From a virus: a DNA stretch of 64,000 nt. Under the pieces are notes generated by a model. That model saw nothing but the letters and a program-made list of their open reading frames with translations. It ran no database searches and had not been told where the DNA came from. Positions 41,983 through 60,350 of the stretch are shown one piece after another. Each line of letters starts with the position of its first letter. The first letter of the stretch is position 1. The DNA lies in the IMG/VR virus record IMGVR_UViG_3300025881_000006, positions 1 through 64,000 of that record; one strand, written 5' to 3'. Both the position numbers and the translations under genes were made by a program.

Positions 41983-42012
41983 CCTGTGGTAATATAAATA
42001 ATCGACGTAGGA

Positions 42013-42047
42013 GAAGGGGGGATTAATCCTCTCTTCTTCTATGCCGC
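42013..42047 (+). terminator. Hairpin followed by TATGCCGC
   Basis: GAAGGGGGG/CCTCTCTTC stem (42013-42036, two G-U pairs) then TATGCCGC at 42040-42047, a one-base variant of the motif. Confidence 0.6.
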
Positions 42048-42090
42048 ATCGTGTGTATAGTATTTATTTTTTTATATCAGGAGGTGCGAA

Positions 42091-43938: not shown

Positions 43939-43952
43939 TTTAAGGAAGTAGT

Positions 43953-44498
43953 ATGATTTCATATAAGACCACAGTCACTAATAAGAAGACTGGGGAACGT
44001 CTTAATACATTTGCTAGTAGAGGAGAGTGTACTAAACATTACTATCCTCTTAAAGACGAACGAGGTAGATTCATCCATGGGGCATTTGAAGAGGCTGAGC
44101 GTTTACGTAAGGCGTTAGAGCGTGACCATGAGTCTATCCTTGTATGGACACTAGCAGACGGTACTGAGGTACTGATACAACAACTACGAGTCAATGCACA
44201 ACCTTTACGCTTTGTCGTTTATCGTGAATCTACTGCTACTGAACATTGGTTTGGTGCTATGAGTGGTATGATTAAACGCACAGGGATACCTGAGGTGGCT
44301 ATAAACCTAGTACTGAGTCAAGAGACTTGTGTATCCATGGGAGGTTATCAGTTTCAGCGTATTGGTGAGAATAAACCATGGCTTAAACCTGATGAAGTAA
44401 AACCTACCTTAGAGTGGCTCTTGCTGTGTATTGAAAATAAAGTACCTCGTACGCTATTGGCTGAATGTTGTCAGTTACTCATAGACCAACAAGAATAA
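43953..44498 (+). CDS. Orphan protein with possible DNA-binding C-terminus
   Basis: A 181-residue protein with AGGAAG before the ATG. Basic N-terminal part. Residues about 112-145 ('GIPEVAINLVLSQETCVSMGGYQF') loosely resemble the helix-turn-helix and 'AGGY.W' pattern of NUMOD/IENR modules in homing endonucleases. No nuclease motif (GIY-YIG, HNH) is present, so at most it is a DNA-binding protein. Low certainty. Confidence 0.55.
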   Translation: MISYKTTVTNKKTGERLNTFASRGECTKHYYPLKDERGRFIHGAFEEAERLRKALERDHESILVWTLADGTEVLIQQLRVNAQPLRFVVYRESTATEHWFGAMSGMIKRTGIPEVAINLVLSQETCVSMGGYQFQRIGENKPWLKPDEVKPTLEWLLLCIENKVPRTLLAECCQLLIDQQE

Positions 44499-44510
44499 GG
44501 AAACGTCAGT

Positions 44511-44969
44511 TTGAAAAATACCTTATCGCTTCATGTGGAACATTTCATCAAAAGTAGTGATACTAAGAAAATGAAATACGTAGAAGCAGGACACCTTACT
44601 TTACGCACCGTACATGCATTTGAGTCGTCCTTTACTACGGATGATGACTTTCATTACCAATCTTACAATATCGATGGGGTATCGGTAGAGGTAGTGGTGT
44701 TTAACGAACATCCATACCCTATTGGCTTAACCATAGAAAATAATAAAGGGTTACAGGTAATGCTAGCTTACCATAAAGACGGTAAGGTTACATTCAGCTA
44801 TGTGCTAAGTACTAAACCTGAAATGGGTTATATGTCGTGGCCTGATAAAGCGCCCTATAACCTCGCCATTGAACGTATATTGGATAACCAATGTAACTTA
44901 CTAGAGTTGATGCAAAAAGAGCACCACTCATCACTGAAGAAGTTATGTGATACCATCCTATCGTCATAG
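44511..44969 (+). CDS. Orphan protein with TTG start
   Basis: A 152-residue protein. TTG at 44511 follows AAGGA; the next in-frame ATG would remove about 19 residues. Mixed alpha/beta ('HLTLRTVHAFESSFTTDDDFHY', 'KVTFSYVLSTKPEMGYMSWPDK'). No family recognised. It lies 12 bp after the previous gene in the same unit. Confidence 0.5.
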   Translation: MKNTLSLHVEHFIKSSDTKKMKYVEAGHLTLRTVHAFESSFTTDDDFHYQSYNIDGVSVEVVVFNEHPYPIGLTIENNKGLQVMLAYHKDGKVTFSYVLSTKPEMGYMSWPDKAPYNLAIERILDNQCNLLELMQKEHHSSLKKLCDTILSS

Positions 44970-44977
44970 AGGTACGT

Positions 44978-45160
44978 ATGTCTGATTATTTATCGTTACC
45001 TAGTAATAAGAAACCTACTCCTAAGGCTCCTGTGGCAAAACCTAAAAGTAAAGCCAAGCGTGTCGTTAAAAAGAAGAAACAGGAAAAGGTTGCAGAGAAA
45101 GTAGTCTATTTGGAATACCCAGAACACATGCGTAATCCAAGTAGAGTATGGTACCGATAG
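44978..45160 (+). CDS. Small Lys-rich basic protein
   Basis: A 60-residue protein with GAGG before the ATG. Residues 10-38 are Lys/Pro/Ala rich ('KKPTPKAPVAKPKSKAKRVV', 'KKKKQEK'), like histone H1-type or ribosomal tails, followed by 'EYPEHMRNPSRVWY'. It could bind nucleic acid. Size and close spacing to the upstream gene support it being real. Confidence 0.55.
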   Translation: MSDYLSLPSNKKPTPKAPVAKPKSKAKRVVKKKKQEKVAEKVVYLEYPEHMRNPSRVWYR

Positions 45161-45241
45161 TAATAGGGTACCAAGGGAGTATGAGTGAGCCTATTTAAAA
45201 GACACTCAATCGGTATATATTTATCCAAGGAGATTATTATT

Positions 45242-45625
45242 ATGCCAAGTGCAAGCAAAGCGTTACACCATAAGAAGCGTTGGGGAAACGCATATGTGAT
45301 ATTCGATGATAACGAGTTCAGTATTATCCATGGTGACTATCTAGAAGATAATGGAGATGTAGCAGCCGAAGGGGTGTTAGGTATCCGTTGGAATGGTAGT
45401 GGTTCAGACCCAGGTTATCCTAAACTATTCAATAATGCAGTATGGATGGTATTACCTAAATGGTTATCTGAGCTTATCATCAATCAAATGGAAGCACCTA
45501 TTAACGATAGAGTATCCAAACAAAGTCACAAGGCGATGTGGTTAAAACGATTAGGGTCTATTACAGGCAATGACACCTTTCTAAGATACCCTGCTAATAG
45601 TTTAGAATTAGAACCAGCAGAGTAA
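45242..45625 (+). CDS. Orphan protein
   Basis: A 127-residue protein from ATG 45242, which has AAGGAG 9 bases upstream; the in-frame GTG at 45185 lies before this site. 'WGNAYVIFDDNEFSIIHGDY' and 'GIRWNGSGSDPGYPKLFNNAVWMVLPKW' suggest a compact alpha/beta domain. No family recognised. A hairpin with a T-run ends the unit at 45637-45660. Confidence 0.6.
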   Translation: MPSASKALHHKKRWGNAYVIFDDNEFSIIHGDYLEDNGDVAAEGVLGIRWNGSGSDPGYPKLFNNAVWMVLPKWLSELIINQMEAPINDRVSKQSHKAMWLKRLGSITGNDTFLRYPANSLELEPAE

Positions 45626-45636
45626 ACGACATAGTC

Positions 45637-45660
45637 AGAGGAGCAGTAGCTCCTCTTTTT
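45637..45660 (+). terminator. Hairpin with T-run after 45242-45625
   Basis: AGAGGAGC/GCTCCTCT perfect 8-bp stem, AGTA loop, T5 run. No TATGC. Confidence 0.7.
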
Positions 45661-45685
45661 ATACCTCTCCATCAAGGAAATAAAC

Positions 45686-46285
45686 ATGAAATATCATTAT
45701 AGTTACCAACAGACAGTGGTTATTAACGAAACCATTAACCGTATGTACAGTACTGCACGTGGTGTAATGTCGTCTACCCAATCCGTTATGCTCAGTATAC
45801 TGACTAAGTTATCACCCTCTATTACCTTAATCCCTAAACAGATTGAAGAAGGTAGATTAATGCATGACATTGGTGAAGACTTTGAACTACCAAAAGGCAT
45901 GACTATCACTTCATCATTAGATAGCATCTTATTAACTCAAAAGAATCCCTATGTCATCATGGGCTATCTCAAGGGTGAGAAACGTTTAGTAGGGTATATA
46001 GACATTGATACTGGTGACCTTGAATCTGAAGAGTTAAAAGTTATCTTGACTAAACTACATGCAAGGCAGTTATATGCTGCTACGCTTACTGCCCAGCTAT
46101 TACCTTTAATAGAAGATACTGACATGAGTCATTTAAACGGCCACGGTCACTTTATGCCTAACACTATTGAGATAGATGGTGAGGTGATTAAAACTATCTG
46201 TTCATTATCTGACACTTACAGTAAACTCATTGCCGATAGCGAAGTAGATGAAACCATTAAACAGTTCATCGCAGAAGAGCCATAG
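45686..46285 (+). CDS. Orphan protein, GHxHxxP pair member 1
   Basis: A 199-residue helical protein with AAGGAA before the ATG. Near residues 150-170 it has 'LNGHGHFMPNTIEIDGEVI', which parallels 'LLGHDHLFPDIVTFTSDQLI' in the next gene, in a similar position relative to the C-terminus. The two adjacent genes may be diverged duplicates. The His residues could bind metal, but this is speculation. Confidence 0.55.
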   Translation: MKYHYSYQQTVVINETINRMYSTARGVMSSTQSVMLSILTKLSPSITLIPKQIEEGRLMHDIGEDFELPKGMTITSSLDSILLTQKNPYVIMGYLKGEKRLVGYIDIDTGDLESEELKVILTKLHARQLYAATLTAQLLPLIEDTDMSHLNGHGHFMPNTIEIDGEVIKTICSLSDTYSKLIADSEVDETIKQFIAEEP

Positions 46286-46292
46286 ATAATAG

Positions 46293-46320
46293 GGGTAGTG
46301 TAAGTACTACCCTTCTTTTT
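46293..46320 (+). terminator. Hairpin with T-run after 45686-46285
   Basis: GGGTAGT/ACTACCC stem with a 6-base loop, then CTTCTTTTTTT. No TATGC. Confidence 0.7.
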
Positions 46321-46352
46321 TTGTTTGTTAGAGTTTTTCTACAGGAAATATA

Positions 46353-46892
46353 ATGCACCAATTTACAAAAGTGAATGCTTTGACTATCTTAAAAAACACT
46401 ATGGTTCTGTCTGAAAAGGCAGAAGATGATATCCTTAAGCTCAAAGGTAAAATACACAACTTACTATTTAAAGATCATCCCAGCACGTTTAATGAAACCT
46501 TGCAAGCATCGAGACCGGCGGCGGTAGATGAAAAAACTGATATGGTTAATTTCATATGGTACATTACCAAAGGCTACGAGGATGCATATTACATTACTCT
46601 ACCAACAGTGGAGTCTAATGACCCTATCGTAACCGCCATAATACCTTTTACTACTAGCTGCAACTCTTCTGGTATTATATCGGGAAGTAGACCGGCTACG
46701 CACGATAAAGCTTGTGAGATAATGGATCGGATATCGGTTATGGAAATATTGTTGGGCAGACTGCAAATAACGTTAAAACAAATAGGTCTAATTAGACTAC
46801 TGGGACATGACCATTTATTTCCAGATATAGTAACCTTTACGTCTGACCAATTAATAACCCTACTAGATGTAGAGCAGGGTTTATCTAAGTAG
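46353..46892 (+). CDS. Orphan protein, GHxHxxP pair member 2
   Basis: A 179-residue protein with AGGAAA before the ATG. Helical N-terminus, Ser/Thr-rich middle, and a C-terminal 'LLGHDHLFPDIVTF' matching the upstream neighbour. It has its own terminator module (46905-46944) and the upstream gene ends in a separate one (46293-46320), so the two may be transcribed separately. Confidence 0.55.
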   Translation: MHQFTKVNALTILKNTMVLSEKAEDDILKLKGKIHNLLFKDHPSTFNETLQASRPAAVDEKTDMVNFIWYITKGYEDAYYITLPTVESNDPIVTAIIPFTTSCNSSGIISGSRPATHDKACEIMDRISVMEILLGRLQITLKQIGLIRLLGHDHLFPDIVTFTSDQLITLLDVEQGLSK

Positions 46893-46904
46893 AAAACTCC
46901 GTAT

Positions 46905-46944
46905 GTAGACGTGTAGGCAATTAGTCTACACGCTCATTCTATGC
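46905..46944 (+). terminator. Hairpin followed by TATGC
   Basis: CGTGTAG/CTACACG stem (46910-46932); GTAGAC/GTCTAC is an overlapping alternative. TATGC is at 46940-46944, 36 bp before the RNAP beta start. Confidence 0.5.
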
Positions 46945-46979
46945 TTATTCTTTTTTTCTTATCACCCAAGGAGGATACC

Positions 46980-49900
46980 ATGTTATTGTACAAAGACATG
47001 TATCGAAAATATGGGATTAATACATTAGCCCAGCTGGTGAATCCACGTACCTTTCCTTTAGACAGTTTAGTGCTGCCTAGAGAGAGTATCGTACATTACC
47101 TACCAGTCGATACAGTTGACATTGGTATCGAACCGAGACACCCCTTATTATTAAATTACTCTGATGATATTCTCGTAACACACGTAGAAGAGTTATCAAG
47201 TGAACTAGGTCGCCCTCGTGAATTATCAGGTGAAGTCAGACGCGGTATAAAAACATATCACAGACGCTATCGCAACCTACGGTTAATACGTCGTATGGAA
47301 ACAGCGCTTCGTGACCCTAACAACTTAATAGTGGATAACTACGCTTTATTAACATCAAGTTATCGCTACAGTCGTAATGCATTAACAAGTTATTATCAAC
47401 ACCGTAACCTGTACGATACATTATGGTCTCAGATTGAAACGTTAACCAAACAGTCCGATCGTGAACACTTTATCCCTGTTACTATCCCCACTACTATTCC
47501 TGCAATGGGTGAATTTGCACGTGCTGTGAATAAGATTAAAGACGAATCTATTCCTAAGGCACTGTTAGAGTTATTCGTAACTAGTGCTGATTTGTTTATG
47601 CTGGATTTATGGTTATTTGTAAATGACGATAATGAAGCTAGTGGTGTAAGTCGCTTATCTGGTGATATGATTGAAAAGCTTAGACGTACTAATTTAGTCT
47701 TTATTGAATCAGGTCGTTTTTGTATATTATCATTCAATCAAATCATGCAGTGGCAAGAAGAAGGTACCAGTGAGCTACAGGCTAAGTTGCGTAAACTGTT
47801 CTTGCACATGTTTGAATTACGTACTCAAAACAATGCTGTCTTAGTAGAAGGTGTTGAACCTGAAGAAGAAAGTGAGTTAATTGAACCGGTTACTATTATC
47901 CCTGCGGATGAACGTACAGATGCTATTAATAGACAAACAGCAGAACTAGCAGAAGTCGGATTACTATCATCAGCAGAACAACGCCGGATGATTACTGCTT
48001 CTACTAAGTATAAGTCTATCCCTAATCCACAAGGTGAAGGTACGTTAGAAGACTTACTTAAGATTGACAAAGAGGTTATTGAAAGTGTAGGTAAAGGTAA
48101 TATTGCCAATATCAATACCGTACCTGACAAATCGATGTTAGGTTCTACCTTATTAGACTTTGACAAGAAGTATGTCAAAGAAGTCATGTCTAAAGATATT
48201 GCTGGTATGGTTATGTCTCTACAGGCAGCCGGTGTAGCAGTAACCGATTATAAAGTAGAAAGACAAGTTGATGTGGCGAATAAGTACGATGCTTACACTA
48301 TCAAATTAGTACCCGTTCGTGGTGTACCGTCTACTATACGTTTTCGTTTACCAGTGGTGGAAGCTAATGGTACGTTTGTTGCAAATGGTGTTAAATGCCG
48401 AATGAACAAACAGCGTGGCGATTTGGTAATTAGAAAGACGGCTGCGGATAGAGTAGCGTTGACTACTTACTACGGTAAAACGTTTATCACTCGTTCACCT
48501 AAAGCAGTGAATAACTACGGTGGTTGGTTGGTTAAGCAGATTACTGCAATGGGTATCGATAATAAAGATGATAGAATATCTACTATTAACTTTACTAACG
48601 TCCATGATAAAACCAAAGACGTGCCTAGACTATACAGTACTATGGCAATGGCTATTCGTCAGTTCACTACTCCTACCTATCATTTTTACTTTGATTATAA
48701 TGGTCGTAGTAAGTTCTTTGGCGAAGAGCAGGTTGCTATTGTAGAATCTAAAGGTTCTGTAGTAGTGGGCAAACAAGGTAAGTTTCTAATCACGGTTGAT
48801 AAAGAAGACGTACTTTACTTGCACAAAGGTGAAGAGATAACACCATTGGGTGAAATGCATGAGCTGCTAAATATAGAAGCTAATCGTATCCCTGTGGATG
48901 TAGCGGATATCAAGGTGTACTCTAAACAGATATCACTTGGTTTGGTCTTAGCACATGAGGTAGGTTTATCTAAACTTATCAAAATGTTAAAGGCTGATGT
49001 AAGACAAGTCCCTCGTGGTACCCGTTTGAATCTTAATGATGATGAGTATGCAATTGTCTTTGCTGACCAGACGCTGATTGTTTCACGTCGTGATAAAGTC
49101 GCTAGTATGTTACTAGGTGGGTTAAACGTATACCGTAATAGTATCCGTAATCATAACCTGCACACGTTTGATTCTCAAGATGTGTATTTTAACATATTAA
49201 GTGATGCGGGACTATCTGTTCGTTTCGTACAAGAGATATCGTTGATGTACTTGATGTTCATTGACCCTATTTCGAAAGAGATATTGGAAACAATGAAAGA
49301 ACCCACTGAGATGGTTAAGTTAACCCTACGGTGTGTTGAGTTGTTAACAACTGATGAGTATCCTGATGAAACTGATATGCGACACATGCGTATTAAAGGC
49401 TACGAGCGTTTCTCTGGTATTATCTATCGTCAGTTAATAGATAGTCTACGTCAGTATCGTCATCGCCCAGTGATGTCCAAGGCGTCAGTGGATGTTAACC
49501 CTAAAGCTATATGGTTAGATGTTATATCAGACCAGTCTCTTAAGATTGTGGAAGATTCAAACCCTATTCACAATTTGAAAGAAAAAGAGTTAGTAACCTT
49601 TACGGGTCAAGGTGGCCGAAGTGCACAGACGATGGTTAAATCATCTCGTGTATTCCATCCAACCGATTTAGGAGTCATCTCTGAATCAACACCTGACTCT
49701 GCTAAGGTAGGTATTAATACATTCCTAACAGCCAACCCTAAACTCACTAGTTTACGAGGTACGGCCGATACGTACGTTAAAGGTCAAGACGGTAATGCGT
49801 CAGTGGTATCTACTACTACGTTAATATCACCAGCAGCAGATAGAGATGATACTAAAAGAACCAACTTAACATCTGTACAATACTCAGCAGCTATTGCATG

Positions 49901-50975
49901 TAAAGGTTATGTCACCACACCAGTTCGTACTGGATATGAGCAAGTCATCGCTCACCGTGTGGATAAGAACTTTGCATACGCAGCAGAGCAGGATGGTAAG
50001 ATAACTAAGATTGATGATGATGTCGTCGAGGTGACTTATGCAGATGGTTCGGTAGTAGCATTAGAGATAGGTGATATTTACGGGACAGTAGCTGGTGAAA
50101 CAGTGAAGCATCGTTTAGTATCTGATGTCTCTATAAACGCTAAGGTAAAGCAGTCTGATATTATCGTGTATAACTCTGGTTTCTTTGAAAGAGACTTCTT
50201 TAATCCTACACAGGTAAGTTGGAAAGGTGGGGTAATGGGTAAGGTAGCGTTGTTAGAATCCTCTGATACATTAGAAGATTCATGTGCTATCTCATCAAAC
50301 CTATCAGGTGAACTATCCTCACCCTCAACTCAGATACGTCCTATCTTAATTGACTTTGATCAAGGGATTCATAATGTTGTTAAAGTAGGGGATGAGGTCA
50401 CGACTGACTCTATTTTATGTACACTTGAAGATGGCGTCTCTGAACAGACCCAACTATTTGACGAGGAAACTCTTCTATCACTTCAAGCATTAGCGGCTAA
50501 CAATCCTAAGGCGAAGTTTAAAGGCGTCGTAGAAAGAATAGAGGTAATTTATAATGGTGATAAGTCTGACATGTCTGCTTCGTTGCAGAAGTTGGCTAAT
50601 GCGTCGGATAGACGACTGGCCGCTCGTAGCAAGCGTCTAGGCCAAGATGAAGCTACTCATGGTCGTATTACTGAGGCAACTCACATTAGTGGGAAGCTAA
50701 TTGAACATGAGAAAGCATTGATACGCATTTACGTATCGACTGAGAAAGGTGCGTACGGTGGGGATAAAGTTGTATTCTCTAACGCATTGAAATCGGTAAT
50801 AGGTAGAGTCATGTCAGGTGTGAATCAATCGGAAAGCGGTGAGGACATTGATGCTATATTTGCATACAGTTCTATAGCTAACCGTATCGTTCTATCTCCT
50901 GAGATTATCGGTACCACTAACACATTACTACGCGTGATAAGTAGAGAAGCACTTAAACGTTATCGCGAAGTTTAA
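46980..50975 (+). CDS. RNA polymerase beta subunit, large N-terminal part (virion RNAP type)
   Basis: A 1,331-residue protein. ATG 46980 follows AAGGAGG; the frame extends upstream but without a site. Beta landmarks occur in order: 'GQGGRSAQTMVKSSRVFHPTDLG' near 875-900 (RpoB LGPGGL...VHPTHYG), 'ESTPDSAKVGIN' (IETPEGPNIGLI), 'DDTKRTNLTSVQ' near 955 (HDDANRALMGANMQ), 'PVRTGYE' (PVVGTGME), 'LEDSCAISSNL' (FEDSILISE) and G-G-D1262-K1263. The canonical RHGNKG after GDK is not kept. It ends 69 residues after GDK, so the C-terminus of beta is missing and is probably the product of 23938-24606. From memory, phiKZ gp178 is the counterpart. Confidence 0.85.
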   Translation: MLLYKDMYRKYGINTLAQLVNPRTFPLDSLVLPRESIVHYLPVDTVDIGIEPRHPLLLNYSDDILVTHVEELSSELGRPRELSGEVRRGIKTYHRRYRNLRLIRRMETALRDPNNLIVDNYALLTSSYRYSRNALTSYYQHRNLYDTLWSQIETLTKQSDREHFIPVTIPTTIPAMGEFARAVNKIKDESIPKALLELFVTSADLFMLDLWLFVNDDNEASGVSRLSGDMIEKLRRTNLVFIESGRFCILSFNQIMQWQEEGTSELQAKLRKLFLHMFELRTQNNAVLVEGVEPEEESELIEPVTIIPADERTDAINRQTAELAEVGLLSSAEQRRMITASTKYKSIPNPQGEGTLEDLLKIDKEVIESVGKGNIANINTVPDKSMLGSTLLDFDKKYVKEVMSKDIAGMVMSLQAAGVAVTDYKVERQVDVANKYDAYTIKLVPVRGVPSTIRFRLPVVEANGTFVANGVKCRMNKQRGDLVIRKTAADRVALTTYYGKTFITRSPKAVNNYGGWLVKQITAMGIDNKDDRISTINFTNVHDKTKDVPRLYSTMAMAIRQFTTPTYHFYFDYNGRSKFFGEEQVAIVESKGSVVVGKQGKFLITVDKEDVLYLHKGEEITPLGEMHELLNIEANRIPVDVADIKVYSKQISLGLVLAHEVGLSKLIKMLKADVRQVPRGTRLNLNDDEYAIVFADQTLIVSRRDKVASMLLGGLNVYRNSIRNHNLHTFDSQDVYFNILSDAGLSVRFVQEISLMYLMFIDPISKEILETMKEPTEMVKLTLRCVELLTTDEYPDETDMRHMRIKGYERFSGIIYRQLIDSLRQYRHRPVMSKASVDVNPKAIWLDVISDQSLKIVEDSNPIHNLKEKELVTFTGQGGRSAQTMVKSSRVFHPTDLGVISESTPDSAKVGINTFLTANPKLTSLRGTADTYVKGQDGNASVVSTTTLISPAADRDDTKRTNLTSVQYSAAIACKGYVTTPVRTGYEQVIAHRVDKNFAYAAEQDGKITKIDDDVVEVTYADGSVVALEIGDIYGTVAGETVKHRLVSDVSINAKVKQSDIIVYNSGFFERDFFNPTQVSWKGGVMGKVALLESSDTLEDSCAISSNLSGELSSPSTQIRPILIDFDQGIHNVVKVGDEVTTDSILCTLEDGVSEQTQLFDEETLLSLQALAANNPKAKFKGVVERIEVIYNGDKSDMSASLQKLANASDRRLAARSKRLGQDEATHGRITEATHISGKLIEHEKALIRIYVSTEKGAYGGDKVVFSNALKSVIGRVMSGVNQSESGEDIDAIFAYSSIANRIVLSPEIIGTTNTLLRVISREALKRYREV

Positions 50976-51002
50976 CCAATTGTATTTTAGGTAAGGTTAC
51001 TT

Positions 51003-51200
51003 ATGAAACATAAAGAAGATTTAGGCCCACACAATGCTAAGATAATGGCTAACGCTGTTCAATTAGCATCAAACGTTTTACACGAAGTGGCGGGTAATGA
51101 CATCGCTGATAGCGTTGCTGGTGAGTCGTTAGAAAGTATGTTGGCTGACACCATGACAGCTAAAATCAATTCAAAACTTAGTGCCAAGGGAGGTGCGTAA
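51003..51200 (+). CDS. Small protein between RNAP beta and 51200-52636
   Basis: A 65-residue helical protein ('AVQLASNVLHEVAGNDIAD', 'SLESMLADTMTAKINSKL'). It is coupled to the next gene by TAATG and lies 27 bp after the beta gene. No family recognised. The acidic amphipathic helices suggest a small partner or scaffold peptide. Confidence 0.55.
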   Translation: MKHKEDLGPHNAKIMANAVQLASNVLHEVAGNDIADSVAGESLESMLADTMTAKINSKLSAKGGA

Positions 51201-52636
51201 TGTTAACTAAACGTACCGTATCGGCCATAGGCCAAGCTGTGTTAAATCACACACAATCAAACGTCTGCCTTAATGCTAAAGAAGGTACACCTTTACGTGA
51301 CCTTGTTACTGTTATGGGCGGGATTGATAATTCTGCATTAAAAGGAGCCGTTCTTTCTAGTCATGACCACGATGTATTAATTGCTAACTCGTTACACCCA
51401 GCCCCTGATGGTGAAGTGCAACATGATACCATGATGCGTCAAGCGGTTTCATTGGCAAGTGACTCAGTTCGTACTATGCTAACTGTAGCACGTACTATGG
51501 TATTACCTACGGTTAAAACCATGTATGCTCAAGTAGACCGTAACATTGCTGATATCGTAGGTACGCCTAATCGTCATGCAGTGCTTTCTGTTTACTTAGA
51601 AGACGTTTATAACTCACCTACAATGGCAGGTTTAATTGAACGTTTCTCTGAAGCGCCTGTAGAAATTCCAATGCCTAGCTCTGGCATGTATCCTGAAATG
51701 GATGGCTTAGAGTTAGAAGAAAGAATGGTAACGGGTATTGCTCGTTTTGATGGCTATCTTAAAACAGTGTTAGATGATGTTGAGCCTGACCTACCTCTAA
51801 CTATTTACAACTCAGTATTTAGAGCGTCAGGTGTTGACCTTTACTCTGGTCTGTTTAATGCAAGTCTAGCTAGACGTAAGCGCTTCGTTGCTCTTATTAC
51901 TCAGTTAGTTGCTAAGAGCTTTTTAGAAAAGCCACCTGAAACAACGAATAGTTCACTGTCTGACTTTAATGATAACTGTGCTACCTTTTTACAACAAAGT
52001 GGCCGTACCCTTTATCGCATGGTTAAAGAACGTGAACGCTTCAATGCGGAAAATCGTTTAATCACATTCTTCCCACAGCCGGGTAGTACTAATCAGGCTA
52101 TTGAAGTAGTTGGTGAAGTATACACTCGTTGGTTAGAAGAAGGTGGTTCTCCTGAGTTGTTGATGGGTGCTTGTTTATCTGGTAATCGTGAAGTGTCATA
52201 TCCCGGTTTGTTAGAAGATAAAGAAAAGTATCTTAAAGTCTATAGTCGTGCTGAACAAATGCACAAGTCTAAGGCAGCAGCTAACCGTACTAGTGCAATG
52301 GTTGATGAGACCAGACGCGTTGTATCTGAATATATTCGTAGCTTATCAACAGATGATAAAACGATTATTGATCCTAAAGACGTATTACTTAAACGTCTAG
52401 GTGAAAGTTTGGGTACCATCACGTGTGGTCAAAGTACCGATTGTTATTGTTACGTTCGTGAAGTGGTATGTAATGTATTCTACCCTCACACTAACGCTTT
52501 AACTATTCTTAAACTGATTGACGAAGCCATAGAAGAGAATCCTAAACTGTCCGTGCGTGAAGCTGGTACAGTGGCCACAATAGATATTGTTGCTACATGG
52601 GTTGCCTCTATGATTGATGTCTCTCGCTATCGTTAA
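51200..52636 (+). CDS. Conserved-context virion-type protein, unknown
   Basis: A 478-residue mostly helical protein, ATG after GGAGGTG overlapping the previous stop. Several Cys cluster in 'ITCGQSTDCYCYVREVVC' near residue 412-430. It lies in the block RNAP beta - this gene - 52653-53375 - prohead protease, which in my memory parallels phiKZ gp178-177-176-175. A head or virion role is inferred from that context. No domain recognised. Confidence 0.65.
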   Translation: MLTKRTVSAIGQAVLNHTQSNVCLNAKEGTPLRDLVTVMGGIDNSALKGAVLSSHDHDVLIANSLHPAPDGEVQHDTMMRQAVSLASDSVRTMLTVARTMVLPTVKTMYAQVDRNIADIVGTPNRHAVLSVYLEDVYNSPTMAGLIERFSEAPVEIPMPSSGMYPEMDGLELEERMVTGIARFDGYLKTVLDDVEPDLPLTIYNSVFRASGVDLYSGLFNASLARRKRFVALITQLVAKSFLEKPPETTNSSLSDFNDNCATFLQQSGRTLYRMVKERERFNAENRLITFFPQPGSTNQAIEVVGEVYTRWLEEGGSPELLMGACLSGNREVSYPGLLEDKEKYLKVYSRAEQMHKSKAAANRTSAMVDETRRVVSEYIRSLSTDDKTIIDPKDVLLKRLGESLGTITCGQSTDCYCYVREVVCNVFYPHTNALTILKLIDEAIEENPKLSVREAGTVATIDIVATWVASMIDVSRYR

Positions 52637-52652
52637 CTAAAAGGGGTGTATC

Positions 52653-53375
52653 GTGAATATATCGGGATTAAAACGCAATCCAAAGGCGATACACTCCATA
52701 TTGGTCCATCGTAATGATGGTACGGTTAAGGTAACTGCTCCGTGTAGTGTACATATACCCAAACGGTATACTACTCGCGAGTTGGCCACCGTAGGTAATG
52801 AAGTCAGTATTGTTGGTATGTTTGGAATTGTCACTGGTAATAACTATGGCGTCTGTCGTATTAATGCCATGGTAAATATCAAGCCTACCTCAATCAATAC
52901 TATTATTATCGACGATACGGAGTATTTGGAATTCCAGTTTGAAGCGGGGGATACGTTATTAACTAATGTGAACTTGGTCAAGCGGGATACGTTAGTTTAT
53001 CGTATTTATGATGAGATAGTAGCCAAAGGTAACACACCGTGGTATATGAGCTACCAAGATTTAGGGCAGTTATTTGATACAGCCTCATCTTTTGGTGGTG
53101 CTAACTTAGGTGCCAACCATGCTATCTTGGAAATGATTACAGCCTCACGTGCTAGAAATCCAAACGATAGAACTAAATACTATCGCCACACACTTAACAA
53201 AGCTACACAGTTGGATACAACGCCTCCTGTGATGATTGCATTGAAGAGTGTACAAGATGGTGCTACCAATACCACTGCTAAGTTAATCGGTGCGTATATG
53301 GATGAAGGTATTAACTCTGCCTTAGTCGACCCTTCTGAGCGTAGTGAGAAAATAGAAGAGTTGTTACGCACGTAA
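52653..53375 (+). CDS. Conserved-context protein upstream of the prohead protease (GTG start)
   Basis: A 240-residue protein. GTG 52653 follows AGGGGTG and gives 'MNISGLKRNPK'. The N-terminal about 110 residues are beta-rich ('TVKVTAPCSVHIPKRY', 'NEVSIVGMFGIVTG'), the rest helical. 16 bp behind 51200-52636 and 17 bp before the protease gene, so it belongs to the same unit. Function unknown; a head assembly role is possible. Confidence 0.65.
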   Translation: MNISGLKRNPKAIHSILVHRNDGTVKVTAPCSVHIPKRYTTRELATVGNEVSIVGMFGIVTGNNYGVCRINAMVNIKPTSINTIIIDDTEYLEFQFEAGDTLLTNVNLVKRDTLVYRIYDEIVAKGNTPWYMSYQDLGQLFDTASSFGGANLGANHAILEMITASRARNPNDRTKYYRHTLNKATQLDTTPPVMIALKSVQDGATNTTAKLIGAYMDEGINSALVDPSERSEKIEELLRT

Positions 53376-53392
53376 CTAGTTAGGAAATAAAC

Positions 53393-54151
53393 ATGAAAAA
53401 TCAAGCTACTTTAAGCTGTACTGCATTAGCCGGTACGAATAAGGTTGGTGCCCTTAAGCCCGACAGTAATGGTTATTACGAAATGGTGTTAGGTGCCTAC
53501 GATTTCTTTAACTCATCTAAAGCTATTTATCCATTTACTTCAGCTAAGCATCTTTTCGAAGAAAGCTCTATGTTGATGCGTCGGATTAACAGTGGTCAGT
53601 GTCGCAGTGAGTATGGTCATCCTAAGAAGCAACGTGGGATGACGATGTCGGATTACATACAACGTATTGTTTCTATTGAAGAAACTAACATTTGTGCCCA
53701 TATTAAGTCGATACGTATCGATACTCAATCTGTAATGGATGATAAAGGTAAGCCAGTTACTGCTGTAATTGGTATGGTTAAGCCATCTGGCCCTAGAGGT
53801 CCTGCTTTACGTGAATCGTTGGATAATCCCGATGAGAACGTAGCCTTCTCTGTACGTTCGTTAACGAATGATACGTTTGAGAATGGTGGCCATCAAAAGC
53901 ACATGAAGCAATTAATTACTTGGGATTATGTAAATGAACCCGGTATCTCTATTGCAACTAAGTATAATGCACCTTCGTTAGAAGAGTTGTCTGAAGACTT
54001 AGAGATAGTGCCGATGATGTTAGACCGTTGGGAAGCGCAAGAGCAAGGTGCTCATGTTGGGATGGAAAGTATCCTAACGTCTAAGATGGTTAGAAGTGAT
54101 TTTGGTTGGCAGAAAGTTCAATCAATACTTGTACCCTCTAGTACTTGGTAA
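53393..54151 (+). CDS. Prohead protease (T4 gp21 / S80-like)
   Basis: A 252-residue protein, AGGAAA before ATG. 'SGQCRSEYGHPKK' at 67-79 matches the G-E/S-x-x-H-P block of phage prohead proteases, with H76 as the likely catalytic histidine. 'VMDDKGKPVTAVIGMVKPSGPRG' follows and 'NVAFSVRS' at 149-156 matches the catalytic serine block (x-F-S-x-R), with S153 as the likely nucleophile. The family cuts scaffold and other head proteins during capsid maturation in contractile-tailed phages. In phiKZ the protease is, as I recall, gp175. The ATG-to-stop length is typical. It is followed by a strong terminator module. Confidence 0.75.
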   Translation: MKNQATLSCTALAGTNKVGALKPDSNGYYEMVLGAYDFFNSSKAIYPFTSAKHLFEESSMLMRRINSGQCRSEYGHPKKQRGMTMSDYIQRIVSIEETNICAHIKSIRIDTQSVMDDKGKPVTAVIGMVKPSGPRGPALRESLDNPDENVAFSVRSLTNDTFENGGHQKHMKQLITWDYVNEPGISIATKYNAPSLEELSEDLEIVPMMLDRWEAQEQGAHVGMESILTSKMVRSDFGWQKVQSILVPSSTW

Positions 54152-54153
54152 AC

Positions 54154-54200
54154 GCATAAACGAGAGTACCTCTTTACATAGAGGTACTCTTCTATGCCGT
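54154..54200 (+). terminator. GCATA-hairpin-TATGCCGT terminator module
   Basis: GCATA (54154), perfect stem AGAGTACCTC/GAGGTACTCT (54163-54190), TATGCCGT (54193-54200), after the prohead protease. Confidence 0.75.
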
Positions 54201-54217
54201 AATCTAGATTTTCACAG

Positions 54218-54229
54218 ACCTACATTACC
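54218..54229 (+). promoter_or_regulatory. Promoter-like motif upstream of 54283
   Basis: ACCTACATTACC lies 53 bp before the ATG at 54283, between the terminator 54154-54200 and the gene. Identical to 26314-26325. Confidence 0.5.
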
Positions 54230-54282
54230 TTTACGGAGTATGGCCTACTATGATTAGTTACTAACCCAAACAAGAGGTAGAT

Positions 54283-54600
54283 ATGTTTAATCCAATTAAA
54301 CGATTTAACAAGTGGAAGAGATTTAGATTCCTAAGTAAGCTGAAACCGTTGATAAAAAATACGATGTTTCACGTTAAGCAAGGGGATGTAATTTGGAGCA
54401 GAGAAGATATTTACGGTGAGGACCACTGGTTAAAATGGAATGTCCACATTGACAGTATGGTGGGGGCAGTGAGCTTTAAAAGAAATGATAGCATTCTAAC
54501 CATTGGGAATGTCCCCGGTACCAATGCGGAACGTTTACGTAGTAATCGCATCATTACTGGTTGTGGTGATGTATTAAGCCTGTACGTTGAGAAAGGATAG
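54283..54600 (+). CDS. Small basic orphan protein
   Basis: A 105-residue protein with GAGG before the ATG. Residues 1-27 are very basic and aromatic ('MFNPIKRFNKWKRFRFLSKL'), then a beta-rich part. It could bind nucleic acid or membrane. First gene of the second accessory block. No family recognised. Confidence 0.5.
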   Translation: MFNPIKRFNKWKRFRFLSKLKPLIKNTMFHVKQGDVIWSREDIYGEDHWLKWNVHIDSMVGAVSFKRNDSILTIGNVPGTNAERLRSNRIITGCGDVLSLYVEKG

Positions 54601-54607
54601 ATACAAA

Positions 54608-55147
54608 ATGAATACAATACAAGAAACGTGGGTAGACTACTCTCGGGCAGTCATTAATAAAGAAGCTTCAGCAGAACAGCGGCGTATAATGAAACATGCT
54701 TACTACAGTGGTGCTAATAATACATTACAGTTGATGTGGCAATTGGGCGATGCTCGTACTGATGAAGATAAAGCAGTAGAGATACTGGATATCTACAATA
54801 AGGAAGTAGAAGAGTTCTTTACTAACATACACCCAGAAGATTCCAAGCTTAGTGGGTCATCGAAAGAAGGTGTAGTTTACGCAACGTGGTGTGAGTATCT
54901 AATACTCAATGGGATGGTTGGATTAGACCCAGGGCCTGAACATGATATTAAAGCTTCGTACTATGCCGGTATTCACAGTGTACTTAATTTAAGCATGAAT
55001 GAATTTGTAGATATGTCACTAGATGCAGGTGCAATGATAATACAAGGTTTATCTGAAGAGGTCAGTATGTACTTCAAAGAAGACCATGAGCGTAAACAAC
55101 CTAAATCAACTAAACCCAAACGTAAGAAACGTCCTAAGCGACATTAG
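54608..55147 (+). CDS. Helical protein with two Y-A-G repeats and basic tail
   Basis: A 179-residue protein from ATG 54608 (7 bp after the previous stop; a frame from 54587 would overlap it). Two units of about 70 residues repeat the order T-W-x-x-Y ... A/S-Y-Y-x-G ... acidic helix: 'TWVDYSRAV ... AYYSG' (31-35) and 'TWCEYLIL ... SYYAG' (117-121). A lysine/arginine tail ends it ('KPKRKKRPKRH'). A third, single copy is the gene at 55669. The motif resembles short helical phage proteins with 'FYAG', whose function I do not know. Confidence 0.6.
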   Translation: MNTIQETWVDYSRAVINKEASAEQRRIMKHAYYSGANNTLQLMWQLGDARTDEDKAVEILDIYNKEVEEFFTNIHPEDSKLSGSSKEGVVYATWCEYLILNGMVGLDPGPEHDIKASYYAGIHSVLNLSMNEFVDMSLDAGAMIIQGLSEEVSMYFKEDHERKQPKSTKPKRKKRPKRH

Positions 55148-55271
55148 ACCGCAGTGAGCCCCTAGGCGTATATATGTAGTTTATTACACTAGGTTGTTAT
55201 TTAGATATAAGAAGGGCTTAGAATGGCATACTGAGCCCCTGATGGACGTTGTAGATAGATAAGGAAGATGA

Positions 55272-55652
55272 ATGGTTATTATAATAGCAGATACTAGCGC
55301 AACTATTACCTGTACTATGGAAAAGTGCGTTGCAGGTGAAGAGATAACGAGATTGTTAGACGATGATGCAAGTGTGTGTTGGGGTAGATTAGATTCGGTA
55401 GAGAATGTTACCGAGCTTACTGAAGTAATGCAACGAGATATCAACTATGACATGAAAAGGATTGAAGAGGTAAGCGGATTAAAGACTAGTAAGTATCATT
55501 ACGGTAATGTAGTCTACCTATTCTTTTTAGCAAAGCCAACTTTAATATCGATGATTACCACGGGTAAGTATGTATTTGATAAAGTCATTCCCGTATCTAA
55601 TGATAGTAAGGTTAGTATAAAGATATCCCTCACTTTTAATTTCAACAATTAA
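55272..55652 (+). CDS. Orphan protein
   Basis: A 126-residue protein starting 124 bp after 55147 with AAGGAAGA before the ATG. Helices alternate with beta strands ('YHYGNVVYLFFLAKPTLISMITTG', 'SKVSIKISLTFNF'). A helix-then-meander layout again; no family recognised. The upstream gap (55148-55271) shows no promoter-like motif or clear hairpin. Confidence 0.5.
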   Translation: MVIIIADTSATITCTMEKCVAGEEITRLLDDDASVCWGRLDSVENVTELTEVMQRDINYDMKRIEEVSGLKTSKYHYGNVVYLFFLAKPTLISMITTGKYVFDKVIPVSNDSKVSIKISLTFNFNN

Positions 55653-55668
55653 GTATTAGGAGATTACA

Positions 55669-55935
55669 ATGGACCAGTCAGTTGAAGACCATTGGGAACA
55701 GCATAAAAGAACTGCGTACCCAAAAGGTATATCGGGACTAGAGGAGATACAAGCTAGGATGTCTTTTTATGCAGGATTTCAAGCAAGTGTAGAATCTGTA
55801 ACTCGCCTACTAAAAAGTAATACTGATGAAGCTACCTTTATCACCAAGGTTCATGCAGCCTTATTAGAGTGCAGCAAGTATATCGATACTCACGTTGTAG
55901 AGTTTGCTAGAATACATTTATACGGGAAACGATGA
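55669..55935 (+). CDS. Small helical Y-A-G-type protein
   Basis: An 88-residue protein with AGGAG before the ATG. 'HWEQHK ... ARMSFYAGFQASVESVTRLL' (FYAG at 33-36) and a second helix 'ATFITKVHAALLECSKYI' match one repeat of 54608-55147. It overlaps the next gene by 4 bp (ATGA). A paralogue of that protein reduced to one unit is likely. Confidence 0.55.
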   Translation: MDQSVEDHWEQHKRTAYPKGISGLEEIQARMSFYAGFQASVESVTRLLKSNTDEATFITKVHAALLECSKYIDTHVVEFARIHLYGKR

Positions 55936-56678
55936 TGCTCTACCAGTACGTTGATGGTAAAGTCACGGAGCTGTATGATAATGGGTACGACAAAAACATT
56001 ATCTACTCTCCAAATCAGGCAGGTATGCCTCCACTAGTTGAAGCAGGAGTCCCTTTTAAAATAGTCGGTAACGATAAGTTTTGGACATTTATAATAGACC
56101 CAGCCGTTAGTGAGGGTTTACTATTAACAGTCTACCATCATCCCTTTCTACATAAACACGCCTATGCCGTTTCTGTAGATGGACCACACTTCACCCAGAT
56201 GTATGTTACACCACAACTATCCACCGTGTGTGAAACGTATTTTGATAATGAACGTACTAGCAAGATTAGCATCCCTCCTACCGCACCCAATGGTCCTATA
56301 TCTGACCTATTTAATCCTTGGGTGATTATACACTGGAATAGACAACGGGTTTGTGAGTACTATGACGCCGCCACTGGTAGACGCTGTAGTACTGAAAAGT
56401 CACTTAGGAACGCCCTACGTAGTCATAACACTACAGAGGGTATATTTAGAACTACCATCCTGCCTCACGTTGAAGAGGGGTTAGTTTTGATTAAGTGTAC
56501 ACACGACTACGTTGACCATGTGAATAATAAATTGATTAGTGATGTTAAATGGCATTTAGAAGTAGGTGTTGGCATCGTTAGTGCCATACAATCTAGAGAT
56601 AAACTATTTGTCGTAGTGAGGAAGTTCGATACATTAAACTTAGTTATTCTGGGACAAGAAGAAACAATGAAGCATTGA
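55932..56678 (+). CDS. Orphan protein
   Basis: A 248-residue protein coupled to the previous gene by ATGA. Beta-rich, with many His and Tyr ('TVYHHPFLHKHAYAVSVDG', 'HWNRQRVCEYYDAATGRRC'). No recognised family or catalytic motif. Same strand and tight spacing as its neighbours. Confidence 0.5.
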   Translation: MMLYQYVDGKVTELYDNGYDKNIIYSPNQAGMPPLVEAGVPFKIVGNDKFWTFIIDPAVSEGLLLTVYHHPFLHKHAYAVSVDGPHFTQMYVTPQLSTVCETYFDNERTSKISIPPTAPNGPISDLFNPWVIIHWNRQRVCEYYDAATGRRCSTEKSLRNALRSHNTTEGIFRTTILPHVEEGLVLIKCTHDYVDHVNNKLISDVKWHLEVGVGIVSAIQSRDKLFVVVRKFDTLNLVILGQEETMKH

Positions 56679-56726
56679 CGGTACGGAACCATTCCTATCG
56701 TCATGTATACTGATAGGAATATCCGC

Positions 56727-57554
56727 ATGAACACACCCAATTACATTGACGTATTATCAAATATTGATATCAATACACCACCTCGTGATATAGAATCATT
56801 ATCTGTTAAATGTGGTGATAATGAAACCATTGCTCATCTATTTGCCTTATGTAAAATTAACATCCCTTTATCGTACGACATACTCTCCCTCACTAATACA
56901 CGAGGGATATCTGTCTATGCTACTATGAGAGATAGTGAAGCGTTATTTGATGGTTGTATTAGATGTTTATCTGCAACGTTTAAAAACGGTGAACCTGTAG
57001 CTCACCTACTCGCTCGTCATGGGTTTAACTTCTTAGAACAACCAGACGTCATGACTCTTGTTGGTTTGAATGGTGATACGACGGCTCATGTACAGGCCAG
57101 AGTGGGCATTCATCCACCTCAGGATAGTAAGTATTTAAAGTTGGTTAACGGTGCTGGTGATAGCGTAGCGTTAATTATGGCTGCCAACGGATATCGTTTT
57201 GGAGACTTAGATAATGAAGTATCTTTAATATCTAACGATGCAGGTTGGAAGGTTATCCATGAGGAAGTAAGTGGAGGTCGTAGAGTCCACGGTAGTAACC
57301 CGATACTATTAGAGTCTTCACATAACGGCACTACCGTAGCTCACCTCGTTGCTTATAACGGCCACGGTAAAGACTTTGGAGATAACCTATATAAACTTAA
57401 AGACCTTCAGGGATTAACTGTAGCGCACTGTGCAGCACTTAGTGGTACAGATACAGTTTTCTCTGATGAGGTATTACAATTAAAGACTAATGATGGAATA
57501 TCAGTACAGGACGTATTGAATGACCCATGTTGTCTAAAGCCAATACTTTGTTAG
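56727..57554 (+). CDS. Ankyrin-repeat-like protein
   Basis: A 275-residue protein from ATG 56727, which has AGGAA upstream; ATG 56703 is also in frame but lacks a site. At least six copies of the core T/P-V-A-H/L-x-x-A-x-x-G occur: 34-43, 90-99, 118-127, 146-155, 203-212 and 231-240 ('TVAHLVAYNG', 'TVAHCAALSG', 'PVAHLLARHG'), roughly 28-57 apart, with 'L..L.N..G' between them. This is the ankyrin pattern in the degenerate form common in bacteria. Ankyrin proteins bind other proteins, so a host-target or anti-defence role is possible. No catalytic domain is fused. Confidence 0.7.
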   Translation: MNTPNYIDVLSNIDINTPPRDIESLSVKCGDNETIAHLFALCKINIPLSYDILSLTNTRGISVYATMRDSEALFDGCIRCLSATFKNGEPVAHLLARHGFNFLEQPDVMTLVGLNGDTTAHVQARVGIHPPQDSKYLKLVNGAGDSVALIMAANGYRFGDLDNEVSLISNDAGWKVIHEEVSGGRRVHGSNPILLESSHNGTTVAHLVAYNGHGKDFGDNLYKLKDLQGLTVAHCAALSGTDTVFSDEVLQLKTNDGISVQDVLNDPCCLKPILC

Positions 57555-57562
57555 GAGTATGA

Positions 57563-58210
57563 ATGAATAAGTTCACTGATAAGTTTCTCAACACGGTTGG
57601 TATTCCTACTGATACCATATCGTTACTAAGAGAATGTTGGGACGAAACTCCTTTTTATAGTAATCTACAATTACCAATAGGGGAGATAGTTAGTGCTATT
57701 TGTGTAAAGTGGTATGACGACGTTGAAGAGTCAAAGCGTGCTATGAATGTAATATTAGATACACTGCCTAAGGTAGCGTTAATACGTGATATTAAAGTAT
57801 CCATTAACGAACCACCACACCCTTGGGCTATATTTGCATTTGATATCGATAACGATAGTTTGCACGTTGCCACTACTGTAGGTCTAACTAAGATTATACA
57901 GGCTGAGCTTATCATGGTACACGCACTACCCATGACGACCATTTGTACAATCTTAAACACCATGGGTACACGCTCCCTACCTTCACGGGTAGACTTTAAT
58001 GTAGTGGATAATATTCTTCCGGGAATGGATACCAAAGCGAAGTTAATAGAGGTACCTGCTATAGCGGTAAAGTCTTATGTTGATATACATGACTTTATGT
58101 ACAAGGGTGAGACTAAGAAATACTATCAGGTAGTACTATCTGACGTGTACGGTATCTTTCCAGATGAAGCTGGATATAGCGGAGCTTACAAGCAGGTTGT
58201 AATTCAATAG
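57563..58210 (+). CDS. Orphan protein
   Basis: A 215-residue protein with TTAGGAG before the ATG, 8 bp after the ankyrin gene. Mixed alpha/beta ('HPWAIFAFDIDNDSLHVATT', 'SYVDIHDFMYKGETKKYYQVV'). No family recognised. The pair with the ankyrin gene may form a functional unit; inference only. Confidence 0.5.
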   Translation: MNKFTDKFLNTVGIPTDTISLLRECWDETPFYSNLQLPIGEIVSAICVKWYDDVEESKRAMNVILDTLPKVALIRDIKVSINEPPHPWAIFAFDIDNDSLHVATTVGLTKIIQAELIMVHALPMTTICTILNTMGTRSLPSRVDFNVVDNILPGMDTKAKLIEVPAIAVKSYVDIHDFMYKGETKKYYQVVLSDVYGIFPDEAGYSGAYKQVVIQ

Positions 58211-58238
58211 TACGTAACGTATCCTAAAACGTTACACC

Positions 58239-58249
58239 CCTACATTATT
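58239..58249 (+). promoter_or_regulatory. Promoter-like motif upstream of 58306
   Basis: CCTACATTATT lies 56 bp before the ATG at 58306, matching the motif at 23388. No clear terminator separates it from the gene before. Confidence 0.4.
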
Positions 58250-58305
58250 CATGTGGTAGTACTCACTACTTAAACCCTTAAAACAAAATACTAAAGGAAC
58301 ATTCA

Positions 58306-58737
58306 ATGTCTAAAGAAAAAACAATTACATTCGCTGAAGCGCTAGGTAAAAAGGTTACTCAGGTAAATGAAGGCATCGTCCAATTCCATGAGAATACATT
58401 CAAAGATACTCTTCCAGAAGACTTAACGGTTGAGACGGTACAGAAAGTACAAGACCACTTGAAAGACTTTACTGGGCAGTTTGCTAAGACTGTAGGTATC
58501 GAAGGTGCCAAGGCCATGTCTGAAGATAAAGAACTAAACTCAGTAAGCGCTGGTTTAGTAGTAGGTCGTGACCGTGTCGAAGTGAATGTTCAACGTGAAC
58601 AAGTAGTTAATGATGAAACTCATCTTGGCTATACTGACCTGAAATACACTATGGATTTTGGTGAAGGTGATACTAGCATTGCCAATCAAGTTCGTGAACA
58701 TAATGCCAAATTGTTCAAAGACCTTGTAGGTAATTAA
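58306..58737 (+). CDS. Small acidic protein
   Basis: A 143-residue acidic protein with AAAGGAA before the ATG. Helical N-terminal half ('TVQKVQDHLKDFTGQFAKTV') and beta-rich C-terminal half ('GRDRVEVNVQREQVV', 'LGYTDLKYTMDFGEG'). It forms a single-gene unit between a promoter-like motif and the hairpin 58745-58771, suggesting abundant expression. No family recognised. Confidence 0.6.
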   Translation: MSKEKTITFAEALGKKVTQVNEGIVQFHENTFKDTLPEDLTVETVQKVQDHLKDFTGQFAKTVGIEGAKAMSEDKELNSVSAGLVVGRDRVEVNVQREQVVNDETHLGYTDLKYTMDFGEGDTSIANQVREHNAKLFKDLVGN

Positions 58738-58744
58738 CAAGTTT

Positions 58745-58771
58745 AGAGTGTGGGCGTTGCCTGCACTCTTT
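58745..58771 (+). terminator. Long hairpin after 58306-58737
   Basis: AGAGTGTGGGC/GCCTGCACTCT stem (11 bp with two G-U pairs) and a GTT loop, followed by TTTCTT. Confidence 0.6.
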
Positions 58772-58801
58772 CTTACTGTTTATTTTTTTAGGTAGATTAT
58801 T

Positions 58802-59326
58802 ATGGATATTAAAATGGAGGACGTATTAGCAGAGATACGTGAGGCGTTACAAGATCGTGTTAAACAACTGATGGAAGATGTAAAGTGGATGACAGGCGAG
58901 GATGCATTACTATTCCTAAATACTTTAGCTGTGTACAACATCAATTTAAAGTTCGATGGTAAGGAAGAGTTAAAGGGCGATGGGATTGGTTTATATACAC
59001 TTAACTGCGTAGAAGCTATTTTAAATGCACTAACTGCAAGTGGTACACTACAACCTGGTAGAAAGGTTAGTGAGATATATGGCATTGCCCCTATAGCTCA
59101 TGCCATGTACTGTTTCTTATTTGTAGAGCACTTACCTACGATCGGTTTAAGAAATACTCTAAAATCAATACCTAGTAACGATGTCCATACGCTTATCAAA
59201 CACTACGGTATTAACCCAGACCTAATCCCAATAGAATCCTTTATTGGTGTAATTAGGTTTATATCTCCACAGCCCTCGTCCCCACTACCTGACAATGTTA
59301 AATGCTTAATACCACTGCTTAGATAG
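58802..59326 (+). CDS. Orphan protein
   Basis: A 174-residue helical protein, weak AGGTAG before the ATG. 'REALQDRVKQLMEDVKWMTGEDALLF' and 'VVRTLIKHYG'-like helices with a hydrophobic patch ('IAHAMYCFLFVEHL'). The stop codon sits in the hairpin 59310-59334. No family recognised. Confidence 0.5.
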   Translation: MDIKMEDVLAEIREALQDRVKQLMEDVKWMTGEDALLFLNTLAVYNINLKFDGKEELKGDGIGLYTLNCVEAILNALTASGTLQPGRKVSEIYGIAPIAHAMYCFLFVEHLPTIGLRNTLKSIPSNDVHTLIKHYGINPDLIPIESFIGVIRFISPQPSSPLPDNVKCLIPLLR

Positions 59327-59344
59327 TAGTGGTAATTATGCCAT
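59310..59344 (+). terminator. Hairpin around a stop codon, followed by TATGCCAT
   Basis: TACCACTGCT/AGTAGTGGTA (59310-59334, one G-U) encloses the TAG of the gene; TATGCCAT follows at 59337-59344. Confidence 0.55.
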
Positions 59345-59421
59345 ATATGTCTTATTTTTTTGTTGCTTTTTGGTAGACTAAACGGTATTGCTCATTGTAT
59401 GACATAACTATGCTGGCAGGG

Positions 59422-59432
59422 CTTACATTACC
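59422..59432 (+). promoter_or_regulatory. Promoter-like motif upstream of 59459
   Basis: CTTACATTACC lies 26 bp before the ATG at 59459, closer than the other copies and with one mismatch. Confidence 0.35.
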
Positions 59433-59458
59433 ATTTTCGATATTATTAGGGAGGTGTT

Positions 59459-59869
59459 ATGAACACCAAAAGACTACATCTTGTATTAAGTGACCACTTT
59501 ATACAAACAGCCCTAGAGTCTAATGTCAATGTGTTAGGAGATACGTTTAATCATGTTTGTAAGGGCATGAATGTAGAACCTATCAATAACGTTGACTATC
59601 AACGAGCCCAAGCAATATATAACGCAACTGCAATGAAGGCGGAAGCCTGTACGTTTGACGCTCCTGCGTATGTGTATTACTGGTTAAGAGAATACTCATT
59701 AGGTCACAAAGGACAGGGTGACTGTTTCGACATGTTAGTAGAGACTATCATTAATACAAACGTATCCTATTTATTTCTAGATGCTCATTACTACTTTGAT
59801 ATAGATAACGTTGAATCGCTATTTAATCAATGCCTTGAGCTTTTTACACCGATGAGTGGGGTCTATTAG
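59459..59869 (+). CDS. Orphan protein
   Basis: A 136-residue protein with GGGAGG before the ATG. Helical, with several Cys and many Tyr ('FDAPAYVYYWLREYS', 'SYLFLDAHYYFDIDN'). No family recognised. Confidence 0.5.
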   Translation: MNTKRLHLVLSDHFIQTALESNVNVLGDTFNHVCKGMNVEPINNVDYQRAQAIYNATAMKAEACTFDAPAYVYYWLREYSLGHKGQGDCFDMLVETIINTNVSYLFLDAHYYFDIDNVESLFNQCLELFTPMSGVY

Positions 59870-60313: not shown

Positions 60314-60350
60314 GAAAGGAAGTCTTCGGGCTTCCTTTCTTTTATGCCGT
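60314..60350 (+). terminator. UUCG hairpin with TATGCCGT, plus strand
   Basis: GAAAGGAAGTC-TTCG-GGCTTCCTTTC stem-loop (60314-60339, 11 bp), T-run, TATGCCGT (60343-60350). Confidence 0.75.

Follow-up and report, generated by a model that had tools for sequence, protein, structure and literature searches.

A predicted short-ankyrin solenoid of a nucleus-forming jumbo phage and its probable role as a protein-binding module

In DARPins, target contacts are made by randomised positions, six per repeat, on the concave face, and the residue numbers given for them match the DxxGxT and AAxxG positions (PMC3602593). Ankyrin proteins are said to be scarce in phages, with the sponge ankyphages and phage WO as the known cases (PMC7064744). 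Among the open-access papers searched, none dealt with ankyrin repeats in nucleus-forming phages, which is not proof of novelty, and none combined the TVAH motif with the words 'repeat' and 'phage', or a '27-residue repeat' with ankyrin. A shortened ankyrin that kept its contact face, multiplied in clusters of phage genes and changed fastest at that face would be a natural counterpart of the engineered ankyrin binders, and such a module would point to fast-evolving conflicts between phages and their hosts.

The repeat gene and its surroundings

The window analysed here, a stretch of 64,000 nucleotides, forms the start of a possibly incomplete IMG/VR virus record of 194,866 bases (IMGVR_UViG_3300025881_000006). 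Its gene content marks the record as a nucleus-forming jumbo phage: it has the nuclear shell protein (phrog_4795, 4.8e-108) and PhuZ tubulin (3e-94), along with a major head protein (phrog_3231) and RNA polymerase. The closest named phages in the phage collection are only approximately 54% identical in a structural protein.

The repeat gene is located in a block of small ORFs, most of which match no known family; the block is bounded on one side by the head maturation protease (53393) and on the other by an opposite-strand structural gene (60406). The reading frame at 56703-57554 (+), counted from its first ATG, is complete and open. We preferred the ATG at 56727 to that at 56703 because AGGA lies 8 nt upstream of it, as it does in most of the phage's further repeat genes, and because residues 1-12 of the long form were disordered in the AlphaFold2 model. 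The 275-aa gene proposed by an earlier, sequence-only reading of this DNA is therefore a real ORF with the preferred start. Its NH2-terminus, MNTPNYIDVLSNIDINTPPRD..., contains no signal-like hydrophobic stretch as judged by eye. The features of the gene and of its downstream neighbour are as follows.

56727..57554, + strand: short-ankyrin repeat protein, 275 aa from the preferred ATG (283 aa from ATG 56703)
56727..56798, + strand: N-terminal cap segment (NYIDVLSNI..., one helix)
56799..56882, + strand: repeat 1, core ETIAH
56883..56966, + strand: repeat 2, degenerate, ISVYA
56967..57050, + strand: repeat 3, EPVAH
57051..57134, + strand: repeat 4, DTTAH
57135..57221, + strand: repeat 5, DSVAL, 29 residues
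57222..57305, + strand: repeat 6, degenerate, WKVIH
57306..57389, + strand: repeat 7, TTVAH, with a weak Pfam Ank_4 match
57390..57473, + strand: repeat 8, LTVAH
57474..57551, + strand: C-terminal cap repeat, GISVQDV
57563..58210, + strand: DUF4262-domain protein, 215 aa, beginning 8 nt after the repeat gene

The sequence-only reading had counted six core copies with ankyrin spacing. We found nine units, spaced 28, 28, 28, 28, 29, 28, 28 and 28 residues apart rather than the 33 of ankyrin, and the AH core is kept in five of them (TIAH, PVAH, TTAH, TVAH and TVAH), the cores of the other four being degenerate (SVYA, SVAL, KVIH and SVQD). An HMM built solely on units from other genomes scored the protein at 50.7 bits, whereas the best of 2,000 shuffled versions of it reached 11.2 bits. 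A GxSVxDV-like form is the last unit in all six repeat genes of the phage genome, and segments of the form [YF]xxAxxxIxL that resemble the N-terminal cap stand, by eye, before the repeats of the paralogues in this phage as well as in phage and bacterial relatives.

Promoter-like control of the block, also part of the sequence-only reading, was not borne out, with 14 sigma-70-like sites compared with 23.2 expected from shuffles; a search for the phiKZ-type TATRTTAC motif yielded no site directly upstream of the repeat gene. No + strand terminator separates the repeat gene from the DUF4262 gene, the first strong one being at 58745, and the two genes are probably co-transcribed. Strong terminator-like hairpins, each with 11 pairs and a T-rich tail, are located at 58745-58769 and 60314-60339 (+) and could bound transcription units of the accessory block. 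The DUF4262 protein has distant relatives in Goslar and LucasX and a weak one in phiKZ gp273.

Fold and relation to ankyrin

To obtain a structure model we applied AlphaFold2 to the 275-aa protein together with 25 relatives. The model was a solenoid (pLDDT of 85.6) in which each unit has a first helix of 7-8 residues and a second of approximately 4, with a turn between them and a bridge or beta-turn after the second. All of the top 50 PDB matches were ankyrin or DARPin structures, with a best E of 1.7e-9 and a probability of 1.00. TM-scores against PDB ankyrins were approximately 0.5, and the predicted overall superhelix is therefore unlike that of any solved ankyrin. A relative from a 159-kb phage contig, IMGVR_UViG_3300005573_000054, was modelled as the same solenoid, with a pLDDT of approximately 97 over the repeats and with ankyrin matches in the PDB; both models depend on alignments from within the short-ankyrin family.

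Profile comparison with hhalign aligned consensus ankyrin with the short unit at 97% and E 9e-11, with a single deletion of 6 residues in the helix-2 region. On the basis of this deletion and of the fold matches, we interpret the unit as an ankyrin repeat whose helix 2 is truncated. The Ank_4 score of the 275-aa protein (18.2 bits) falls below the Pfam cut-off (22.7), and bacterial relatives exceed Pfam cut-offs (117.7 bits for Ank_4). By a strict definition of 33 residues, two full helices and a score above the Pfam cut-off, the protein is a short ankyrin variant and not a canonical ankyrin. The sequence-only reading had staked its ankyrin-repeat-like assignment on a helix-turn-helix solenoid; a solenoid is what the prediction returned, and the assignment is upheld by the model, the PDB matches and the profile comparison.

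Relatives and variation at the contact positions

The HMM of external units picked exactly six ORFs from the phage record, the gene at 56727 with 7.6e-15 and the weakest with 1.7e-4, the next ORF being at 0.61. The six genes are dispersed across 130 kb of the record, and the paralogues of the 275-aa protein are only approximately 30-45% identical. Coordinates of the further repeat genes in the record are given below.

92356-92595: repeat gene
112232-112792: repeat gene, units behind an unrelated N-terminal region
126053-126550: repeat gene
127614-127949: repeat gene
184463-185059: repeat gene, units behind an unrelated N-terminal region

The N-terminal region of the gene at 112232-112792 comprises 120 aa with GGFKRGELITILGSS, which recalls the Walker-A strand of DnaB/RecA without GKT, and had no database relative. 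Two genes past it, at 113416-113904, the record encodes a NADAR-domain protein (Pfam 2.4e-28), which possibly acts against an ADP-ribosylating defence. A predicted secreted matrixin-type metallopeptidase (Pfam Peptidase_M10, 2.3e-24) at 181448-182221 carries a C-terminal PEP-CTERM-like motif scoring 18.2 bits, under the cut-off of 20.7; such a tag would imply an exosortase-bearing host.

The same profile search found the repeat in none of nine related jumbo phages (pEa_SNUABM_54, LucasX, Eowyn, FLC9, PCH45, Goslar, DT01, Totoro and phiKZ). Searches with tblastn of the 275-aa protein, a consensus tandem and single repeats yielded nothing among 50,697 phage records, a related-locus search with the protein or with a 2-row alignment gave no relatives, and relatives were reached only by profile and motif searches. 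Neighbouring protein P0002 and the two fused N-terminal regions likewise had no tblastn relatives, and the 275-aa protein had no NCBIfam, PADLOC or PHROGs match, counter-defence families being thinly covered in PADLOC and PHROGs. Given that relatives were reached via NGWT and DGWT[IV]AH motifs, the arrays seen are biased accordingly, with one matching unit per locus having sufficed.

In the 159-kb phage contig, which has RNA polymerase genes of its own, 76 profile matches lie together as a gene cluster; a 27-kb contig contains 25 profile matches together with a terminase. Approximately 13 tandem short-ankyrin genes with approximately 100 units, an extreme expansion of a gene family, occupy positions ~40500-59700 of the 159-kb contig. 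On the megaplasmid pDF308 of Deferribacter desulfuricans we found a cluster of eight short-ankyrin ORFs (118110-148823), all annotated as hypothetical with the exception of one labelled 'histidine triad'. Two pDF308 proteins are nearer to the unit style of the jumbo phage (GxxFxxxxILxLxDNNGxTVAH) than to the WELAD style, and the plasmid also bears RtcB, TnpB elements and a sigma factor. Proteins in Deltaproteobacteria and Desulfovibrio MAGs have up to 34 units each. DNA-motif scans and profiles gave a repeat period of 27 in the relatives. Occurrence of the repeat is patchy: at E 1e-15, 5 of 150 genomes in the order of one Desulfovibrio MAG, that MAG included, contained it, and at the same threshold none of 274 gammaproteobacterial genomes did, in a set without a positive control.

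The positions randomised in DARPins were transferred to the short unit as positions 2, 4, 5, 7, 15 and 16, and this set was drawn from the DARPin design before substitution rates were computed; the sixth is a further position randomised in DARPins. When tested against all sets of six positions, entropy at these positions was unusually high in each of three groups: 101 units of the 159-kb phage (P of 2e-5), 34 units of the 27-kb contig (1.8e-4) and 357 other units (1e-3). We estimated pN/pS from near-identical units, each counted once (27, 14 and 41 pairs, respectively), and obtained 0.84, 1.49 and 1.15 at the contact positions compared with 0.12, 0.39 and 0.29 elsewhere. The trend was similar for pDF308, with 7 pairs. 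These values were measured in the arrays of relatives, the paralogues of the 275-aa protein itself being too diverged. In the relatives, structural positions are strongly constrained, and the rate of change at the contact face is about that of silent sites or above it. Such rapid change supports the view that these arrays are a diversifying protein-binding scaffold; on a weaker reading, pN/pS values near 1 can also reflect relaxed constraint on the contact face alone. The sequence-only reading had taken protein binding from the ankyrin assignment; binding gains indirect support from the fast amino-acid change at the putative contact positions of the related arrays.

Proposed function and comparison with known systems

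We consider it fairly probable that the 275-aa protein is a nine-repeat intracellular binding solenoid of a spreading short-ankyrin family, whose concave face captures one protein, most likely of the host. The phage would produce the solenoid in the cytoplasm of its host. There the concave face would bind one particular protein, most likely one from the host, either a takeover target or part of a defence, and the captured protein would then be blocked, sequestered or redirected. The family would spread among phages, megaplasmids and some bacteria and multiply in gene clusters, its members varying mainly at the contact positions of the concave face. The protein likely binds a partner. We infer that this partner belongs to the host, perhaps to one of its defences, because of the accessory position of the gene, the lineage-specific multiplication of the repeat and the fast-changing face; any role in host takeover or counter-defence is likewise putative. 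Absence of the repeat from the nine related phages and its six-fold presence here are as expected of an accessory interaction module.

The solenoid might instead be an adaptor that joins two phage proteins, for example by bringing cargo to the nuclear shell or PhuZ machinery or by connecting assembly factors, and would then have no host target. Both the shell protein and PhuZ are encoded in the genome, and fusion of units behind two unrelated N-terminal regions (184463-185059 and 112232-112792) is common in adaptor modules. The repeat is nevertheless missing from all nine related phages, including the nucleus-forming phiKZ, PCH45 and Goslar, and the fast-changing contact positions in the gene families of other phages better fit an external, changing partner, so that we regard an adaptor as rather unlikely. 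Closer to the gene itself, the solenoid might bind or target the enzyme-like DUF4262 neighbour, with which it shares a strand across an 8-nt gap that lacks a + strand terminator. Close packing of genes is normal in phages, however, and the jumbo phage has its five further repeat genes elsewhere. A joint function is not needed, because the genomes of Goslar, LucasX and phiKZ hold DUF4262 relatives but not the repeat; a two-gene unit of this kind appears improbable.

Secreted ankyrins of the ankyphage or phage WO type, acting on a eukaryote that carries the infected bacterium, are known to be encoded by phages (PMC7064744), and Deltaproteobacteria and Desulfovibrio MAGs are the source of many of the repeat's bacterial relatives. 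Against such a role stand the NH2-terminus without, by eye, a hydrophobic signal, the nature of nucleus-forming jumbo phages, a type known as lytic rather than as symbiont prophages, and the presence of relatives on a Deferribacter megaplasmid as well, and we consider it very improbable that the 275-aa protein acts in this way. Beyond capture of a single host protein by the intracellular solenoid, a broader proposal is that large phages keep a natural 'DARPin-like' repertoire, in which a mobile short-ankyrin module, multiplied and diversified at its contact face, would track changing host proteins, most likely defence components. We offer this tentatively, as a possibility that is more doubtful than not; the six-gene set might, with the same reserve, be an example of such a repertoire in a nucleus-forming phage.

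The short unit shares with canonical ankyrin (Pfam clan Ank: Ank_2, Ank_3 and Ank_4) and with DARPins the half-repeat GxTxxHxxAxxG in the same register, as well as, according to the model, a stacked helix-turn-helix-beta-turn solenoid. The variable positions of its relatives coincide with those randomised in DARPins. It differs from canonical ankyrin in its length of 27-28 rather than 33 residues with a second helix of approximately 4 residues, in having [TPS][VIT]AH in place of TPLH, and in its predicted helices, which are 7-8 and 4 residues long whereas a unit of ankyrin has two antiparallel helices of similar length together with a beta-hairpin or turn. The ANKp proteins of ankyphages and the ankyrins of phage WO are also phage-encoded ankyrin-type proteins (PMC7064744). 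They are described as secreted or directed at eukaryotes and belong to symbiont phages, whereas the 275-aa protein, without an evident signal sequence and with short repeats, belongs to a nucleus-forming jumbo phage. Multiplied viral ankyrin genes are likewise found in giant viruses and poxviruses, whose ankyrins made up most of the named BFVD fold matches (the best being from Hokovirus, Megavirus, Klosneuvirus and avipox); the match is one of fold only, at approximately 8-16% identity, and those are viruses of eukaryotes. The clusters in IMGVR_UViG_3300005573_000054, on pDF308 and in the Desulfovibrio and Deltaproteobacteria MAGs have the same short unit and caps and are homologous by profile, but their period is 27, their arrays reach 34 units and their genes stand in tandem, whereas the genes of the jumbo phage are dispersed.
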